Below the pieces are notes generated by a model. That model searched no databases and had not been told where the DNA came from. It saw nothing but the letters and a program-made list of their open reading frames with translations. The position numbers and the translations under genes were made by a program. This document shows positions 1-23,128 of a stretch of DNA of 26,682 nucleotides, piece after piece (position 1 is the stretch's first letter; each line of letters starts with the position of its first letter). The stretch lies in the IMG/VR virus record IMGVR_UViG_3300035698_007486, positions 1 through 26,682 of that record; one strand, given 5' to 3'. This stretch comes from a virus.

Positions 1-55
1 ATGATGCGTCTCCCGTACGTCAGTTTGGTGACGCGGCGTCGTGCCGCGATCTATG

Positions 56-208
56 CTAGGTGCGCGGCCAGCGTCGTGCTGAGTACAAGGCATCCGTTCC
101 CTGGGCATCCCTGCCCGAGCCGCGCATGTGGAAGCGGCCAGTGCCCGCCAAGGACTCACTGGCCGCTGTGCTGGTTTCCGTCGAGTTGATTGGTGCCTTG
201 GCGGGCAT
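56..208 (-). CDS. possible 50-residue leader or small protein, unknown function
   Basis: The ORF runs from ATG at 208 to TAG at 58-56 and gives 50 residues with no recognised domain, no membrane segment and a Ser/Thr/Ala-rich first half. Its start is well supported: AAGGAG lies at 220-215, six bases before the ATG, and a near-consensus sigma70 promoter lies just upstream, giving a 5' leader of about 16 bases. An in-frame upstream GTG at 250 falls before the predicted transcription start and is unlikely. The start-codon region can pair with the loop of a hairpin inside the ORF, so expression may be controlled by RNA structure. The transcript could equally be a structured non-coding RNA with a chance ORF. 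The promoter and ribosome site are seen directly; that a protein is made is inference. Confidence 0.45.
   Translation of the reverse strand: MPAKAPINSTETSTAASESLAGTGRFHMRGSGRDAQGTDALYSARRWPRT
133..167 (-). repeat. perfect 11-bp inverted repeat with 13-base loop
   Basis: The arms at 133-143 and 157-167 are exact reverse complements. The loop carries the CCTTGGCGGG element (minus strand) that also matches, in reverse complement, the translation start of the small ORF at 207-196. No T-tract follows on either strand, so a terminator role is unlikely. Confidence 0.85.
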
Positions 209-230
209 TTGAGGCTCCTTGCTACCTACC

Positions 231-260
231 AGTATACACAGGCGACCCACTTCGCGTCAA
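231..260 (-). promoter_or_regulatory. sigma70-type promoter, leftward
   Basis: On the minus strand a -35 box TTGACG (260-255) and a -10 box TATACT (236-231) are separated by 18 bases, each one mismatch from consensus. The start of transcription is predicted near 224. The promoter lies about 95 bases past the terminator that closes the long operon, so it opens a new leftward transcription unit that leaves the window. A strong Shine-Dalgarno (AAGGAG, 220-215) follows at once. TTGACGC occurs again 12 bases upstream (272-266), which could be a second -35-like element or part of an operator. Confidence 0.8.
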
Positions 261-14910: not shown

Positions 14911-15774
14911 CTATCCCTCCATATCCTTCAGCAACGCCCCCAGCCTCGTGGGCAGGTCGGCTATTGTCCATTGATGCTCTTTGACCATCGCCACCATGTG
15001 CGCCATCGCGTCCGGGCACAGGTGGCAGTCTTTCGTCTGCAAGCCTTCGGTAATCGTGCTGGTGTCCTTCTCGTCGTCCACGCAGTAGCACACGTACGGC
15101 TGACGGTACAACGCCTCGCCGTAGCACAGCACAGGCAACCCAGCCTCAATCGCCTGCAACCCGCACGTCGAGTTAATCGTCGCTACCGCACACGCGCCCT
15201 CGAACGCATCTTCAACCGTTGGGCTTTCATCCAACTTCGCGCCCGAGTTGTGTAGCTCTCTAACTAGCTCGAAGGGGAAAGCAGCCTGCGGGTGGGGTCT
15301 GACTCGTAGCGGCAGCGCCGACTGCTCCGCGAGCATGTGGACCCACGGCGCCATTCGCTTCCACGGGCTGAGTGCCCGTATCTGCATGTCGTCCTCGCAT
15401 TGCAGAATCACGAGTAGGTCGCCGTCGCGTACGCGAAGATGGTCCTGCGGCGTGTACTCAGGCACTTTCGGAACCCAGGACGCCAGCGAGTTGATGCCAG
15501 CCGGGTCCAACTGGAACGTGCCGTCCTGCGGTAGCCAGCCGAGTTCGGCGTACAGCGTATGGGCCGTGTCGGTTAGGCACTCGTGTATCTTGTCATAGAC
15601 GGGATGCACGCCGTTCCACATCACGGCCAAGTCGCAACTTCGCAACGCGGCCAGTGGCGGGTTGTCGTTGTGCCAGCGGAACGTATAGTAGCCCAGCGTG
15701 CCCAGCGCCGCCGCAATCGCGTCCAGCGTCGGCTTGGAGCGAGGATCAGGGCGGGTCTCTACTCCGGCACGCAT
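14911..15774 (-). CDS. KpsC/KpsS-like capsular polysaccharide (Kdo-type) glycosyltransferase
   Basis: The 287-residue protein shows the C-terminal nucleotide-sugar-binding half of GT-B enzymes of the capsule-synthesis family: RVRPHPQ at 157-163 and TINSTCGLQAIEAGLPVLCY at 199-218, followed by GEALYRQP. In KpsC/KpsS these segments bind CMP-Kdo, so a sugar transferase using a Kdo-like or related donor is likely; the actual donor and acceptor cannot be read. Family members are often longer, so this is a compact single-domain form. It ends the sugar cassette. GGGGAG lies eight bases before the ATG, with a three-base gap after the methyltransferase. A possible role is modification of virion or host-surface glycans. 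Confidence 0.72.
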   Translation of the reverse strand: MRAGVETRPDPRSKPTLDAIAAALGTLGYYTFRWHNDNPPLAALRSCDLAVMWNGVHPVYDKIHECLTDTAHTLYAELGWLPQDGTFQLDPAGINSLASWVPKVPEYTPQDHLRVRDGDLLVILQCEDDMQIRALSPWKRMAPWVHMLAEQSALPLRVRPHPQAAFPFELVRELHNSGAKLDESPTVEDAFEGACAVATINSTCGLQAIEAGLPVLCYGEALYRQPYVCYCVDDEKDTSTITEGLQTKDCHLCPDAMAHMVAMVKEHQWTIADLPTRLGALLKDMEG

Positions 15775-15777
15775 ACG

Positions 15778-16449
15778 TCACGCTCCCCGCTGCGGCAAAA
15801 CCCACTGCCCGCCAGTAGGCTCGCCCGGAAGATACAACTGCGCCTCCGACCACCCGCTGCCTTCGCCCGTACCCTGCTTGAGATGGTCTTTGATAGTAAA
15901 CTCGGCTGGTTTTACCACAACAGCCATCGCGTTCAGGCTGTTCTCGGCAAACGCGCCGTCGCGGCAATCCCACCCAGCCAAGGCCAGAAGGTACGCCAAC
16001 TGGTGTGCGGAGAACCCCGTGTGAACGTGACCAGCCAACACATCGGCCCGGAATCGCGGCACCGCCACGTACAGCCGCCCGCCAGTTCGGATGGCATGGC
16101 CCCATGCGTGAAGCGTGCCAATCGCGTCTCGCGAATGCTCTAGGACGTGGTGGGACCACCCGGCCCCGTAGCTTCCAGGCCCCAAGTCGTCCCACGAACC
16201 CTCGATGATGCCGTAGCCGCTCTCCGCCGCATGGGTCACTCCGGCCTCGGGCGGGCAGTGGTCTACGCCAACCGCGAGCTTGCCTCCCGCAATCATCTTA
16301 GATACGTGTCTCCCGTGCCCGCAACCGAAGTCCACGATGTCGTCGTCGCCTGAGTCAAGCAGAACTTCCAGCAGTTCGCGATAGTGCGGCTCGAACCTCT
16401 CGTCGCTGTCCACCAGTGCCTGCCAATTCGCCATTTGACAATTCATCAT
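15778..16449 (-). CDS. class I SAM-dependent methyltransferase
   Basis: Residues 38-48 (DIVDFGCGHGR) form the SAM-binding motif I and Asp63 in VGVDH is the acidic residue after beta strand 2. SHHVLEHSRDAIGTLHAW and IRTGGRLYVAVP follow the Methyltransf_11 pattern. The substrate is not visible; placement among sugar enzymes suggests O- or N-methylation of a sugar. The start at 16449 is chosen because GCAAGGAGAGCAAGGATGA, the ribosome-binding cassette shared with two neighbouring genes, sits exactly at this ATG. The gene consequently overlaps the end of the glycosyltransferase gene by 95 bases, which is unusually long for this operon. Confidence 0.88.
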   Translation of the reverse strand: MMNCQMANWQALVDSDERFEPHYRELLEVLLDSGDDDIVDFGCGHGRHVSKMIAGGKLAVGVDHCPPEAGVTHAAESGYGIIEGSWDDLGPGSYGAGWSHHVLEHSRDAIGTLHAWGHAIRTGGRLYVAVPRFRADVLAGHVHTGFSAHQLAYLLALAGWDCRDGAFAENSLNAMAVVVKPAEFTIKDHLKQGTGEGSGWSEAQLYLPGEPTGGQWVLPQRGA

Positions 16450-18565
16450 CCTTGCTCTCCTTGCTAGCCCTGAAGTCTTCGAGTGCTTGCAAAAACTGGC
16501 TATCCTGCTCTCCCTTGGACGCCTTGGTCATCTGGCCGTCATGCTGGCGGTATAGGTAATACGGGTTTTGCACGAAGCCCCATCGCATCTTCGCTCCGAT
16601 CGCGCGGATGTTCCAGTCGGCGTCGGGGCATCGTGGGTACTTGTCACTGAACCCGCCTACCTTATCGTAGACCTTCTTCCACGCCACAATCGAAGCCCCG
16701 ATTGGCCCTGTGTTCTGAAAGTTGCCCAGGTACTTCTCTTCCTGCATCCCGTGGTTGTCCATCAGCGCCTGCGGCTTGCCGTCCTTATTGGCCCATACGC
16801 CGCCGCACGAGAGTAGGTCAATCTCGCCCGCGTGCTGCAAGAGCGTCATCGCTTCGGCTTCGATCCGCCGTGAGTCCTGCACGTCGTCGGCGTCCATTCG
16901 CGCAATCATGTCACCTTCCGCCAGTTCCAGGCATTTGTTGAACGCGCCTGTGTAGCCAAGGTGGCTGATTCGCCCGACGTATATCCGAGAGTCCTGCTCC
17001 GCGAACGCCTGGGCGATCTTCAGCGTGTCGTCACGCGACCCGTCGTCGGTGATGATGAGTTCCCAGTTCTGGTACGACTGGAGAAGGCACGACCGAATCG
17101 CGTCCCCGATGTAGTCCTGCACGTTGTAGGCTGGCATTAGGATGCTGACCTTGGGCAGTTTCGTACCCAAGCCGCACAGGCTGCGAATGTAGTCGTGGCC
17201 CACCGGACCCGACCAGTGCATTACGCTCGCGGCGGGGTCGTTACCCTCCATCCGCAAGTGCTGGAACGTGCGGGGCAGAATCACCACGCGGTCCATGCGG
17301 CGCTGAATCATCGTGTTCAGGGCGTCCTGATTGTTCTGGAACTTCGCGGACAAGCAATGCTCCGCCCACTCGCTGATTGTCGGATCGCCCCAGTGGTAGG
17401 CCACAACCCCGCCCGCCAGGGGCTTCGGGTTCCCGGCACCGAACGGCGTGTAGGGGTCTGTGTGGAACCCGATCTTGTCATTGGCGATCAGTGGGAATAG
17501 CGACGATAGGCAGTCCCGCACTTCGCAGTCCAGGTCCAGCCAGATCGTGCGGTTGAACGGCGTCTTGAGCATCGCCAGCGGCATCATGTGCATCACCGGC
17601 ATTCCGCCGGGCGGCTTGTAGGCAATCACGCGACCGCGTGCCTTGCAGAACGCCACGAGTTCGGGCGACATTCCCATATCCACGAAGACGACAGGGAGGT
17701 CGTTGTGCTTGTGGTAGTGAATCCACCACCACGGAATCATCCATTCGCTACTGGCGTCCGATGCGACCATTACGCCGTCAGAGTTCTCGCGCGCCTCGGG
17801 TCGCCACTGGCATAGCTCGGCCACCGCGCCGAACATCGTCGGCATCTCGGGCATCACCGGCATTCGGCCTTCGGACGCCTTCAGGGCCTCGTCCAGCGGC
17901 ACGTAGTCTAGGTGCTCATTGGCGGGGCTGTCCGGCGTGCAGGAGATAATCTCAATACCGTGCCGCTCGGCTTCGGCCCGCACGAAACCCAACTGAGTGC
18001 AGATTCCTTCGTACAAGTCCTTGTTGTGCTTCTTGGCAGCGGGCGTCATTGCCACGTCGTCGTGGCAGTAGTCGCCCTTCTCGGCGGAGAAGTCCGTACC
18101 GACGAGATGGATTCGCTTCGCGCCCATCCAGATCAGGACGTGCAGGGTGATCCAGAACGAGTTGCCGACCCACAGGAATTCCGCGTTATGGGCTCGCCGC
18201 GTGAACATCTCCTGCAAGCCGCCGGGCGTGCCCGTCGCCGTATAGACGTTGGGATACTGCATGAGTGCCCGGTCGGCTACGCTGTCGTGCATGTACTTCG
18301 AGCCAATGACCTTCGGGAACGGCTTGTTCCACACGTCGCGGTCGTAGCACTGCGCCCCGTCCATGCACAGCCACAGGTCCGGCTTCGGGATGTGCGGGTA
18401 GGCGGTATTGACCGCCGCCGTGAATACGCCAGGCCGGTCGAATACGGTGGGGTCTACGTCCTTGAGGCTGGGGCCGGGGCAGCACAGATAAATGTCGCAC
18501 CCGAAGTCCTTCCTCGCCCAATTCGTCGGGACCAATCGCTCGCCGTCGTGAAAAAGAAGACTCAT
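16355..18565 (-). CDS. three-domain glycosyltransferase fusion, 736 residues
   Basis: Three modules are visible. Residues 1-230 have a Rossmann-like layout with CCPGPSLKD (28-36), AVNTAYPHIPKPDLWLCMDG and GNSFWITLHVLIWMGAKRI followed by HLVGTDFS, resembling DUF115/MptE-like and GT42 sialyltransferase-like proteins. Residues about 262-460 look like a GT-A/GT8-type transferase with a DxD motif in WLDLDCEV (342-349) and a late MHWSGP. Residues about 472-700 are a GT2 enzyme: PKVSILMPAYN, ITDDGSRDDT and the metal-binding MDADD (557-561). The protein is soluble, with no membrane helix. Its ATG overlaps the dehydratase stop by four bases (ATGA). From about residue 698 (KESKDDE onward) the sequence is the ribosome-binding region and 5' end of the methyltransferase gene read in another frame, so the last 35-40 residues look like a read-through tail. 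Three sequential transfers on one glycan are a plausible inference. Confidence 0.85.
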   Translation of the reverse strand: MSLLFHDGERLVPTNWARKDFGCDIYLCCPGPSLKDVDPTVFDRPGVFTAAVNTAYPHIPKPDLWLCMDGAQCYDRDVWNKPFPKVIGSKYMHDSVADRALMQYPNVYTATGTPGGLQEMFTRRAHNAEFLWVGNSFWITLHVLIWMGAKRIHLVGTDFSAEKGDYCHDDVAMTPAAKKHNKDLYEGICTQLGFVRAEAERHGIEIISCTPDSPANEHLDYVPLDEALKASEGRMPVMPEMPTMFGAVAELCQWRPEARENSDGVMVASDASSEWMIPWWWIHYHKHNDLPVVFVDMGMSPELVAFCKARGRVIAYKPPGGMPVMHMMPLAMLKTPFNRTIWLDLDCEVRDCLSSLFPLIANDKIGFHTDPYTPFGAGNPKPLAGGVVAYHWGDPTISEWAEHCLSAKFQNNQDALNTMIQRRMDRVVILPRTFQHLRMEGNDPAASVMHWSGPVGHDYIRSLCGLGTKLPKVSILMPAYNVQDYIGDAIRSCLLQSYQNWELIITDDGSRDDTLKIAQAFAEQDSRIYVGRISHLGYTGAFNKCLELAEGDMIARMDADDVQDSRRIEAEAMTLLQHAGEIDLLSCGGVWANKDGKPQALMDNHGMQEEKYLGNFQNTGPIGASIVAWKKVYDKVGGFSDKYPRCPDADWNIRAIGAKMRWGFVQNPYYLYRQHDGQMTKASKGEQDSQFLQALEDFRASKESKDDELSNGELAGTGGQRREVRAALSRTAGSSA
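16446..16464 (-). repeat. ribosome-binding cassette, copy 1 (methyltransferase start)
   Basis: The minus-strand sequence GCAAGGAGAGCAAGGATGA is identical over 19 bases to that at 19593-19575. It contains AAGGAG and the start codon. In the frame of the overlapping upstream gene it encodes KESKD. Confidence 0.9.
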
Positions 18566-18585
18566 GCTTGCTCTCCCTGCCCTTG
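18562..18585 (-). repeat. ribosome-binding cassette, copy 2 (glycosyltransferase start)
   Basis: The minus-strand block matches copy 3 (19598-19575) at 22 of 24 bases and ends in the ATGA stop-start overlap. It carries GGGAG about seven bases before the ATG. Confidence 0.85.
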
Positions 18586-19578
18586 CGGTGTGTACTCAGG
18601 TACGACAGCCAGAAGCGCATCGACTGTAGCAGCGCCGCTTCCTAGCCTGCGAATGGCGTCCCAGTCCGGCTCGCCTGTGTCCTTGTACGCGAATACCTTT
18701 GGGTGTGCCGTGGGTTTCGTGTCGGCGTAATCCAGCGGCTCAAACAGCCGCTCGCCGGGACGCGCTCCCGTAAACTCGATGTCAATGTCCTTGCCGCTCA
18801 GCGCAATCATCTGCCGGGCCAGGTCCACAATCTTGACCGGCTCGCCCATGTCCAACAGGTAGATACGCCCCGACTCTCCCAACGCCGCCGCCTGTAGGAC
18901 AAGCTGCGCGGCCTCTGGGATGGTCATAAAGTACCGCTTCATCTCTGAGTCGGTGACAGTGACCGGCCCGCCCGACTCAATCTGTCGGCGGAAGGTCGGC
19001 ACCACAGAGCCACGAGAGTCCAGCACGTTGCCGAAGCGGACGGCTACGGTGCGGCAAGCTTCCTCTGGGCAAGTGCAGCAATACAGTTCGGCGGCACGTT
19101 TCGTAGCGCCCATAATGGACGTAGGCTGAATCGCCTTGTCTGTGGACAGCAAGACAAACGCCTTGCACCCAGCCGTGCGCGATGCTCTGTGCGCGTGCGC
19201 CGACCCGCCGAAGTTCGTGCCAAGCGCCTCTTCCGGATGTCGCTCCAACATGGGAACGTGCTTGTATGCAGCGGCGTGAAGCACAATATCAGGCTTCTCT
19301 TGAGCCCACACGGCCTCCACCCGCTCGGGCAGCCGCACGTCGCATAGGTGTGCCTCGGTCGGCACCCGGCCCTTCAGTTCCTGTTCGATGTCAAACAGCG
19401 GCGTCTCGGCGTTGTCCACCAGGACCAGCTTCTTCGGAGAGAAGCGGCACACTTGGCGGCACAACTCGCTCCCGATACTCCCGCCTGCCCCGGTCACTAG
19501 GACCACTTGGTTGTTCAGGAACTCAGACACGGCCTCCATGTCCAGTTCCACCGGCTCCCTGCCCAGTAGCTCGTTCAT
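18562..19578 (-). CDS. nucleotide-sugar 4,6-dehydratase (CapD/PglF/WbpM family), soluble form
   Basis: An extended short-chain dehydrogenase of 338 residues. VTGAGGSIGSEL (28-39) binds NAD(P), HAAAYKHVPMLE follows at 101-112, and STDKAIQPTSIMGATKR (145-161) is the active-site block. Met156 at the classical Tyr position, with the Asp-Lys pair, is the pattern of the PglF/WbpM/CapD branch, which converts UDP-GlcNAc to a UDP-4-keto-6-deoxy sugar. Later GARPGERLFEPL is also typical. PglF and WbpM normally carry N-terminal membrane helices; here only about 22 residues precede the Rossmann core, so it should be cytosolic. No aminotransferase or acetyltransferase is present to finish a bacillosamine-type sugar, so the pathway must use host enzymes or another product. 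The start at 19578 is set by AAGGAG in the cassette. It overlaps the preceding gene by 56 bases. Confidence 0.92.
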   Translation of the reverse strand: MNELLGREPVELDMEAVSEFLNNQVVLVTGAGGSIGSELCRQVCRFSPKKLVLVDNAETPLFDIEQELKGRVPTEAHLCDVRLPERVEAVWAQEKPDIVLHAAAYKHVPMLERHPEEALGTNFGGSAHAHRASRTAGCKAFVLLSTDKAIQPTSIMGATKRAAELYCCTCPEEACRTVAVRFGNVLDSRGSVVPTFRRQIESGGPVTVTDSEMKRYFMTIPEAAQLVLQAAALGESGRIYLLDMGEPVKIVDLARQMIALSGKDIDIEFTGARPGERLFEPLDYADTKPTAHPKVFAYKDTGEPDWDAIRRLGSGAATVDALLAVVPEYTPQGQGEQA

Positions 19579-19870
19579 CCTTGCTCTCCTTGCCCTTGTA
19601 CGGAAAATGCTGGTTCAGTGTCTTTTGCCGCCCCTTACAGCCCCCGCATGGCGGGATACCAAGCCGCTTCGTTATTTTCGCCACGGTGTCGCCCAGTCCC
19701 CGGCTAGGATACTCACCCCATCCGTACCCCTCTGGGCACGGGAAGTCGTCTTGCGAAAGCCCCTTGAACGCCCTGCGTATGCTCTGCCTCCACTCTCGCC
19801 CACCCTCCAAGTCCCGACATGTAGGACAGTGGGCGTGCCCGTGGCACAAGTCTGTGTAGTTGTGACTCAT
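19523..19870 (-). CDS. small Cys-rich phage protein with GLGDTVAKITK motif
   Basis: The 115-residue protein starts with CHGHAHCPTC (9-18), a possible metal-binding cluster, and has a conserved-looking core GLGDTVAKITKRLGIPPCGG then CKGRQKTLNQHFPYK (58-92). I remember similar GLGD(T)xAKxTK...C-GGC-KxRxxxLNxxFPYK segments in small proteins of unknown function encoded by many tailed phages. Those end soon after FPYK; here the frame continues 23 residues through the ribosome site and 5' end of the dehydratase gene into a Gly-rich tail (GQGAGGTGHGG), as if the native stop was lost when the sugar cassette was inserted. The ATG at 19870 overlaps the previous stop by four bases (ATGA); the longer frame to 19951 is not needed. 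Two-site zinc binding is possible but unproven. Confidence 0.78.
   Translation of the reverse strand: MSHNYTDLCHGHAHCPTCRDLEGGREWRQSIRRAFKGLSQDDFPCPEGYGWGEYPSRGLGDTVAKITKRLGIPPCGGCKGRQKTLNQHFPYKGKESKDERATGQGAGGTGHGGRV
19575..19598 (-). repeat. ribosome-binding cassette, copy 3 (dehydratase start)
   Basis: The cassette carries AAGGAG seven bases before the ATG and is shared with the starts of the glycosyltransferase and methyltransferase genes. In the overlapping upstream frame it encodes KGKESKDE. Confidence 0.9.
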
Positions 19871-21008: not shown

Positions 21009-23128
21009 TAGATGCGGTGCCTACCGCCAGGAGCCACGTCCACAGCGACAGACTCCATCGCCCACGCACTCTCGCCGTTGTTCTGTATCTTCAAGGCGTG
21101 TGCCCCGCCGCGTACCCGTGTGCGGTCGTCCTGGTTGCGCCCGGCTTCCCACATACCCGTCGCCTTGGCCGAACCGCTCGTCACGGCCTCCATCGTGTCA
21201 GAGGAGTACAGGCCCCACGTCGCGTTGCCGCTAGTGGATGAAAGCGTACCCACCGTGCGATTGACCTTCGCGTCACCCATCGGACCCGCAAACCGCTGGG
21301 GATGCAGCCACGCATACGACGCGATCGCCGTACTGGTCGCGCCTGTCGAGTCGGTCGCTACAGAGTCGTCAAAGATGAATAGGCCCCCGGCACGAGAGCC
21401 CATGAGCATCTTGCGCAGCGAGGGGTCGCTTGAGTAGAATACCGACGCACAGGTCGGGTCGTGACTCGTCGTGTAGGTCTCGGGGAAGAAGGCGTTGTTC
21501 CGCACGTCGTAGAAGTGGTGCGAGCCGATTGTACCCGCCCTGGGGGTTGTGAAGATGTTGATGCCGTGCCGCTCGGCGTCGTACGAGCATGAAATGTGGT
21601 TCAGCGTCGTGTCCACGTTGCCCAGCGTCGGAATCCGCTTCCACGACAGGTTCTCCGGCTTGCCGCCCGGTGCCATCACGTAGAAGCCTTCCGCCCCCAT
21701 GAAGAACAGGTTGCCCTTGGGGTCTTGGCACCACGCATGTTTGCCGACAATCCCCACCCCGTCAGACCGCTGGTCGAGCCAGCCGCCCTCCATCGGGTCG
21801 CCGCGCATCACCCACAGGCTTTGCGCACAGCCGATCACTAGCCGATTGTCCGTCATCGGGCACAAGGCCGTCACGGGGTCGCGGACCTTGCCCATCTGGC
21901 CCAGGTTGCCCGCTACGGCGCTCTGGGCGTCGTCGTGCCCGTAGTCCCAGTCGAAGGCGTTGTCCTGCCTACTCATGTACCAGTTCGCCGGGTCGTTCTG
22001 TGAGCCCGACAGTACCACGCGGTTTCGCCAGTTGCAGACCAGCGTAGCGTCTTGGATCATCTCGCCTTCGCGGGTCTCCCAGGTACTCAGGGTGTCCGCA
22101 ATCGGATCGTAGACCTTCGGCGCGGAGCCGTTGACGATAAACAGGAGCCCGCCATGACCCGCACCCATGCCGCCAGACGACGCGCCCGCGTTGCCTTCGG
22201 AAGTCAGTGCGGTAGCGCCCACGTACAGATTGCCGCCCGACAGGCACGCGAGCTTGCGTTCCGACGCCGTGGGGCGCGTGACGCCGTTCAGAGCCCAGTC
22301 CGACACAAACACGTCAATGAAGGACGATGCGATACTGCCCGGCTTCGGGTTGCTCTTGGTGAGTTGGAAACCGGCCGTCGTGCAGGTCTGCCCCACGCGG
22401 GGCTTGCTGATTTCCGCACGGCCAGACTCGTTTTCCCAGTACAAGTGAATGTTCTTCTCGTCCGCTTCGACCCGGAGATTGCCGCCACGCTCCGCCGCCG
22501 ATGCGCCGTAGTTGAACGACCGGCGTTTCGTCGATCCGCCCGCCTGCAAGCCAAGCGTCATCGTCATCAGATACGCGCTCTTGGGGAACCCGACGTACTC
22601 GTTGGCGACTTCCACCCACGCCTGGCACCCGTTCGTGCCTGTAGTCGTAGAGCCAATATAGAACAGAGCCTTCCCGTTGGTAGGGTTGTTCCATCGCACG
22701 CCGGTAGACAGCGTAAAGTCGTCCCAGTGGTCCGTACTGAGAATCTTGTTGTACTTACCGGAGTCCACATCCGAAGCCGTGGAGCCGAGGTGTACTTCGC
22801 CGCCCTTGTGCTGCATGGCAGCGCCCGCACTCGACCACCCAGTACCAGAGACAGACTTCAACGCCGTCGTGCCGGAATACTCGAAGTCGTCGTTGTAGTA
22901 CGTGCTACTGCCCCAGCCGGTGTCGAACCAGTCAACCCACTGGGTCTCGCCGTTGAGACTATGCCCAACGGCGAGACCTGGGCGGGTTCCCCCACGCGCT
23001 CGCTCGGCGTCCACCGAGTACGCGCGCACATTCCCCAATGACGGGGAAGTTTCCTTGGGCTGGTTAGTGAAGGCCCAGTTCGTGTCCAGGCCACCCAAGG
23101 GGAACGGCAATGGGACGGTTTGGCTCAT
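21008..23128 (-). CDS. large tail protein, nozzle-like (T7 gp12 position), with lectin-like insertion
   Basis: The 706-residue protein starts MSQTVPLPFPLGGLDTNWAF and continues with NVRAYSVDAERARGGTRPGL, an N-terminal pattern I remember from large podovirus-type tail proteins. Residues about 75-285 look like a jelly-roll or concanavalin-like insert (DDFTLSTGVRW, GKALFYIGS, LRVEADEKNIHLYWENESGR). From about 290 the repeated beta-strand units (ACLSGGNLYVGA, GGLLFIVNGSAPKVYDP, RLVIGCAQSLWVMRG, KGNLFFMGAEGFYVMAPGG) fit a beta-propeller, as in T7 gp12. The start at 23128 is chosen because it follows the preceding stop by two bases; the frame is open to 23182 but that would overlap. Assignment as the distal tail tube is from fold pattern and order, not from a match. 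Confidence 0.75.
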   Translation of the reverse strand: MSQTVPLPFPLGGLDTNWAFTNQPKETSPSLGNVRAYSVDAERARGGTRPGLAVGHSLNGETQWVDWFDTGWGSSTYYNDDFEYSGTTALKSVSGTGWSSAGAAMQHKGGEVHLGSTASDVDSGKYNKILSTDHWDDFTLSTGVRWNNPTNGKALFYIGSTTTGTNGCQAWVEVANEYVGFPKSAYLMTMTLGLQAGGSTKRRSFNYGASAAERGGNLRVEADEKNIHLYWENESGRAEISKPRVGQTCTTAGFQLTKSNPKPGSIASSFIDVFVSDWALNGVTRPTASERKLACLSGGNLYVGATALTSEGNAGASSGGMGAGHGGLLFIVNGSAPKVYDPIADTLSTWETREGEMIQDATLVCNWRNRVVLSGSQNDPANWYMSRQDNAFDWDYGHDDAQSAVAGNLGQMGKVRDPVTALCPMTDNRLVIGCAQSLWVMRGDPMEGGWLDQRSDGVGIVGKHAWCQDPKGNLFFMGAEGFYVMAPGGKPENLSWKRIPTLGNVDTTLNHISCSYDAERHGINIFTTPRAGTIGSHHFYDVRNNAFFPETYTTSHDPTCASVFYSSDPSLRKMLMGSRAGGLFIFDDSVATDSTGATSTAIASYAWLHPQRFAGPMGDAKVNRTVGTLSSTSGNATWGLYSSDTMEAVTSGSAKATGMWEAGRNQDDRTRVRGGAHALKIQNNGESAWAMESVAVDVAPGGRHRI

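Follow-up and report, generated by a model that had tools for sequence, protein, structure and literature searches.

A candidate small phage gene whose start codon is predicted to fold into an mRNA helix beyond an operon terminator

In the operator of Escherichia coli rpsO (S15), a pseudoknot at the ribosome-binding site includes paired bases from the coding sequence and governs how accessible the start codon is (PMC3858243). The c4 RNA of phages P1/P7 and the sar RNA of P22 are phage transcripts complementary to translation-start sequences, and the antisense complementarity of c4 is probably displayed in loops (PMC12197685). IsrK, from prophage Gifsy-1, is a short phage transcript that serves as an mRNA and as an sRNA at once (PMC12197685). 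Ordinary bacterial and phage mRNAs may also carry a start led by a Shine-Dalgarno (SD) sequence partly inside a local helix, which is opened by the 30S subunit. The phage region described here resembles rpsO, c4, sar and IsrK in parts only. In contrast to rpsO, a full pseudoknot appears sterically impossible and the hairpin is located 3' of the start; there is neither a known protein ligand nor an Rfam match. Unlike c4 and sar, the region has no antirepressor gene in view and no Rfam match, and its 12-base complement targets the start of its own RNA. As with IsrK, one short transcript could act both as messenger and as pairing RNA, although no sequence relation to IsrK is shown and we only infer such a dual function. 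The start would be opened by the 30S subunit as in ordinary structured mRNAs, but here the helix consists of 12 perfect base pairs and shares bases with another perfect hairpin. The Rfam search returned nothing at the gathering threshold over the whole window; below threshold, positions 1-420 gave chance-level matches only, and families of the c4/sar type gave none up to E = 5 in that interval. A plus-strand match to DUF3800-IV (24.4 bits against a cut-off of 60.7) was rejected as chance because it tracks the same imperfect inverted repeat, 133-153/196-216.

The window, that is, the whole stretch of DNA analysed, is a linear virus fragment of 26,682 bases from IMG/VR. All its listed genes point leftward, and the operon closes at a strong intrinsic terminator at 390-361 on the minus strand (13-pair stem, 4-base loop and T tract), which alone folds at -24.7 kcal/mol. 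Their predicted products are an SU10-type adaptor, a virion protein and glycan enzymes, besides a 3401-aa protein, one protein carrying a lipoprotein-like signal, a trypsin-like protease and a 79-aa protein, the last with only a sub-threshold match to Rz-like spanins. The glycan genes (14914-19578, minus strand) are placed among structural genes and include capsule synthesis-like, methyltransferase, family 2 glycosyltransferase and polysaccharide epimerase genes. Three successive gene starts of the glycan region (16450-16470, 18566-18586 and 19579-19599, minus strand) carry a near-identical leader before the ATG, GC-AAGGAG-AGCAAGG or close to it. The studied region is bounded by the operon terminator and by the contig end, near which an assembly error may be present; positions 1-410 have no long match anywhere else in the window.

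Immediately beyond the terminator, the minus strand carries the promoter-like hexamers TTGACG-18-TATACT (260-231, 10/12 consensus matches), one of only two sites in the window that reach this score. They stand immediately 5' of an ATG at 208, and we infer a transcription start near 224, which would leave a 16-base leader. Within this leader, the SD sequence AAGGAG (220-215, minus strand) is separated from the ATG by a 6-base spacer. The pattern AAGGAG-N4-9-ATG is found at four sites on both strands of the window, against 0.8 expected by chance, and the three others open genes of 338, 223 and 191 codons. ATG 208 is therefore most likely a genuine translation start, as judged from an SD-spacer-ATG pattern shared with large genes and from the promoter directly upstream. 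It opens a frame of 50 codons (208-56, minus strand, stop TAG at 58-56; MPAKAPINSTETSTAASESLAGTGRFHMRGSGRDAQGTDALYSARRWPRT), so that promoter, SD, start codon and open frame follow each other in the correct order for a coding gene. The codon log-likelihood of the frame is +1.7 bits, where coding sequences average 19.3 (sd 8.6) and non-coding ones -18.9 (sd 12.6), and its GC content by codon position is 0.54/0.70/0.76 against 0.62/0.47/0.75 for the phage. The 50-aa protein matches none of Pfam, PHROGs and the phage records. A frameshift into the other frames was rejected, since codon scores there are negative. An antisense frame of 50 codons on the plus strand (60-212) scores +10.9 bits and is thus more phage-like than the minus-strand frame; it is disfavoured, having no clear ribosome-binding site and no family match.

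The RNA expected from this promoter contains two perfect helices. Helix A joins 207-196, which includes the U and G of the start codon, to 153-142 by 12 bp, and hairpin B joins 167-157 to 143-133 by 11 bp around a 13-base loop. Read along the transcript, the strands are A (207-196), B (167-157), A' (153-142) and B' (143-133), in this order; bases 144-153 of helix A lie within the loop of hairpin B, and bases 142-143 belong to both helices. Two smaller hairpins follow: one of 5 bp at 116-103, found in the minimum-energy fold, and one of 6 bp at 48-32, beyond the stop codon, found in the fold of 224-32, with no T tract after it. All these elements, together with the operon terminator and the near-consensus leftward promoter past it, had been reported by the first-pass annotation and were recovered at the same positions. 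Neither helix is accounted for by chance, as each is met about once in 1000 shuffles. Of 2000 dinucleotide shuffles of region 1-224, 0.1% contained a perfect local hairpin with 11 bp or more, and 0.05% a complement anywhere of 12 bases or more. When the 50-aa protein was kept fixed and codons were drawn from phage usage, the corresponding counts were 0/1500 and 6/1500; when its own synonymous codons were permuted, they were 13/1500 and 23/1500. The stability of the whole fold of 224-1 is ordinary (z = -1.46). Perfect hairpins are compatible with coding, since the frame of the predicted virion protein contains one of 13 bp (22943-22978, GGTCTCGCCGTTG-10-CAACGGCGAGACC), the longest perfect local hairpin in the window.

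Pairing probabilities were obtained from equilibrium models over successive transcript lengths, which are not kinetic simulations. In these models helix A appears once position 142 has been transcribed, with a predicted pairing of 0.97-0.995 in every transcript reaching that base, and hairpin B never competes, its ensemble probability being at most 0.004 in all modelled transcripts. Opening the start region would, in the model, take 12.5 kcal/mol. This is a high value, yet within the 2.6-22 covered by 13 other phage starts. A pseudoknot between the hairpin loop and the start codon had been suggested earlier. In a pseudoknot of the H type, the linker between both 3' strands must cross the second helix. 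Here the loop strand ends at 144 and the 3' strand of hairpin B begins at 143. With zero bases left to cross a second helix of 10 bp, the full pseudoknot is sterically excluded, as judged on geometry read from the sequence, and the two helices do not stand together as in an S15-like operator. With hairpin B intact, helix A could keep at most about 5 bp, at its 196/153 end, which would leave the AUG free; full helix A and hairpin B are mutually exclusive.

We consider it somewhat better than even that the region carries a small and ordinary phage protein gene, preceded by its promoter and ribosome-binding site and with its start codon folded over in the mRNA. The 50-codon gene probably opens the following leftward transcription unit, the larger part of which would lie beyond the contig. 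After initiation by RNA polymerase, the first codons would pair with codons 19-23 to form helix A. Because the first codons would be locked in this way, translation would begin only once a 30S subunit, captured by the strong SD, had opened helix A, and basal expression would be moderated by the helix over the start. Hairpin B would be another way to fold these bases, adopted after passage of a ribosome or if helix A is prevented, and no stable component of the resting RNA. Any regulatory function of the folded start is putative. Helix A is rarely produced by chance, and a plain gene leaves this unaccounted for.

Several other readings give the helices more, or less, to do. Helix A, closing the start, and hairpin B, leaving it open, could exchange under the action of a protein, an RNA or the ribosome, and so form a translational switch acting on the small gene or on the genes after it. 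Both helices are perfect and rare, they have bases 142-143 in common, most of the 3' arm of A is contained in the loop of B, and their isolated energies are similar (-21.5 kcal/mol for A and -20.4 for B). However, in context helix A stands at about 0.99 and forms first during transcription, and we see no ligand, no relatives and no Rfam match, so that we regard such a switch as unlikely. The two-helix exchange proposed in the first-pass annotation thus holds on paper, in that the helices exclude each other, and is weakened by the modelled balance between them; nothing points to a trigger. The same annotation had also envisaged a free-standing structured ncRNA; the transcript is better read as the mRNA of a small gene, and no terminator that could end a discrete short RNA was called within the window on the minus strand below 361, though one may lie past the contig end. 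At the other extreme, the helices could have no function and be by-products of polymerase template switching, which would have left short inverted duplications to accumulate in a weakly constrained stretch separating two transcription units. Template switching between the arms of inverted repeats is a known route to arm identity in yeast (PMC8604942). Perfect inverted repeats of 11 bp or more within 320 bases are clustered: of five in the whole window, three are inside the first 410 bases. This clustering and the weak coding statistics of the 50-aa frame agree with such an origin. Nevertheless, a well-formed ribosome-binding start lies under one of the helices, and the presence of the right long repeat arm in a 3' UTR would be a coincidence; we hold this origin to be distinctly unlikely.

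That arm belongs to the best inverted repeat of the region, which was absent from the first-pass annotation and surrounds the promoter as well as the small gene's start (87-105 and 388-406; 16 bp perfect between 90-105 and 388-403, 19 bp at 95%). No inverted repeat longer than 12 bp arose in 400 shuffles of 1-410, and 20 Markov copies of the whole window gave no 16-bp inverted repeat within 320 bases. The left arm falls inside the 50-codon frame, and the right arm occupies most of the short 3' UTR of the operon. This arm lies past the stop of the 79-aa gene (409) and reaches 3 bases into the terminator stem. From its sequence, the repeat would let the new RNA anneal to the upstream operon's mRNA at its 3' end. 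Whether as an mRNA alone or as an mRNA and sRNA together, the transcript from 224 might then be a regulatory RNA that pairs through 105-87 with operon mRNA 406-388, between the last stop codon and the terminator, and alters termination or stability of the operon; in a read-through RNA the two arms would close a large loop. The local duplex amounts to -41 kcal/mol and the net cofold gain to about -18. We nonetheless think this role quite improbable, as the arm is partly paired within the 224 transcript, the target contains no start codon and no relatives were found. It is very unlikely that one transcript combines everything, being a messenger for the 50-aa protein with a two-helix switch at its start and a binder of the 3' end of the late-operon mRNA at the terminator; such a dual messenger and pairing RNA would, if true, link the two transcription units. 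Least probable of all, and in our view highly so, is an invertible segment, in which a recombinase would flip 106-387 between the 19-bp arms, reverse promoter and terminator together and thereby turn the leftward genes on or off. The repeats do flank the promoter (260-231) with perfect 16-bp arms 282 bases apart, and fimS is an invertible promoter of comparable segment size. On the other side, no recombinase is found among the family matches of the scanned window proteins, the left arm lies inside a reading frame, and a single orientation is known.

The search for relatives relied in part on protein-based scans, the reach of which is limited to close relatives. Among viral contigs, queries with the 50-aa frame, the protease, the C-terminus of the 3401-aa protein, the adaptor and the virion protein returned no relatives. 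The epimerase query gave one match of 42% in a viral contig (L011), the examined part of which shares no other window protein, and it was not retained as a relative. Phage records, plasmids and bacterial genomes likewise yielded no relatives. An exact scan for the arm of the long repeat hit nine contigs, all unrelated. The exact hairpin scan hit one viral contig (L012:8736-8758), in which 23 bases (TGAGTCCTTGGCGGGCACTGGCC) are identical to window 158-136; this contig has no window protein in common and is otherwise unrelated, and the identity was taken as chance. The phage thus represents a lineage without relatives in the searched collections.

If the small gene with a folded start is all there is, the region is an ordinary one. 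Should the arms prove functional, it would be an uncharacterised RNA control point between the late genes of the phage and the genes that follow them, with the 16-base match to the operon's 3' end as the feature that most deserves testing.
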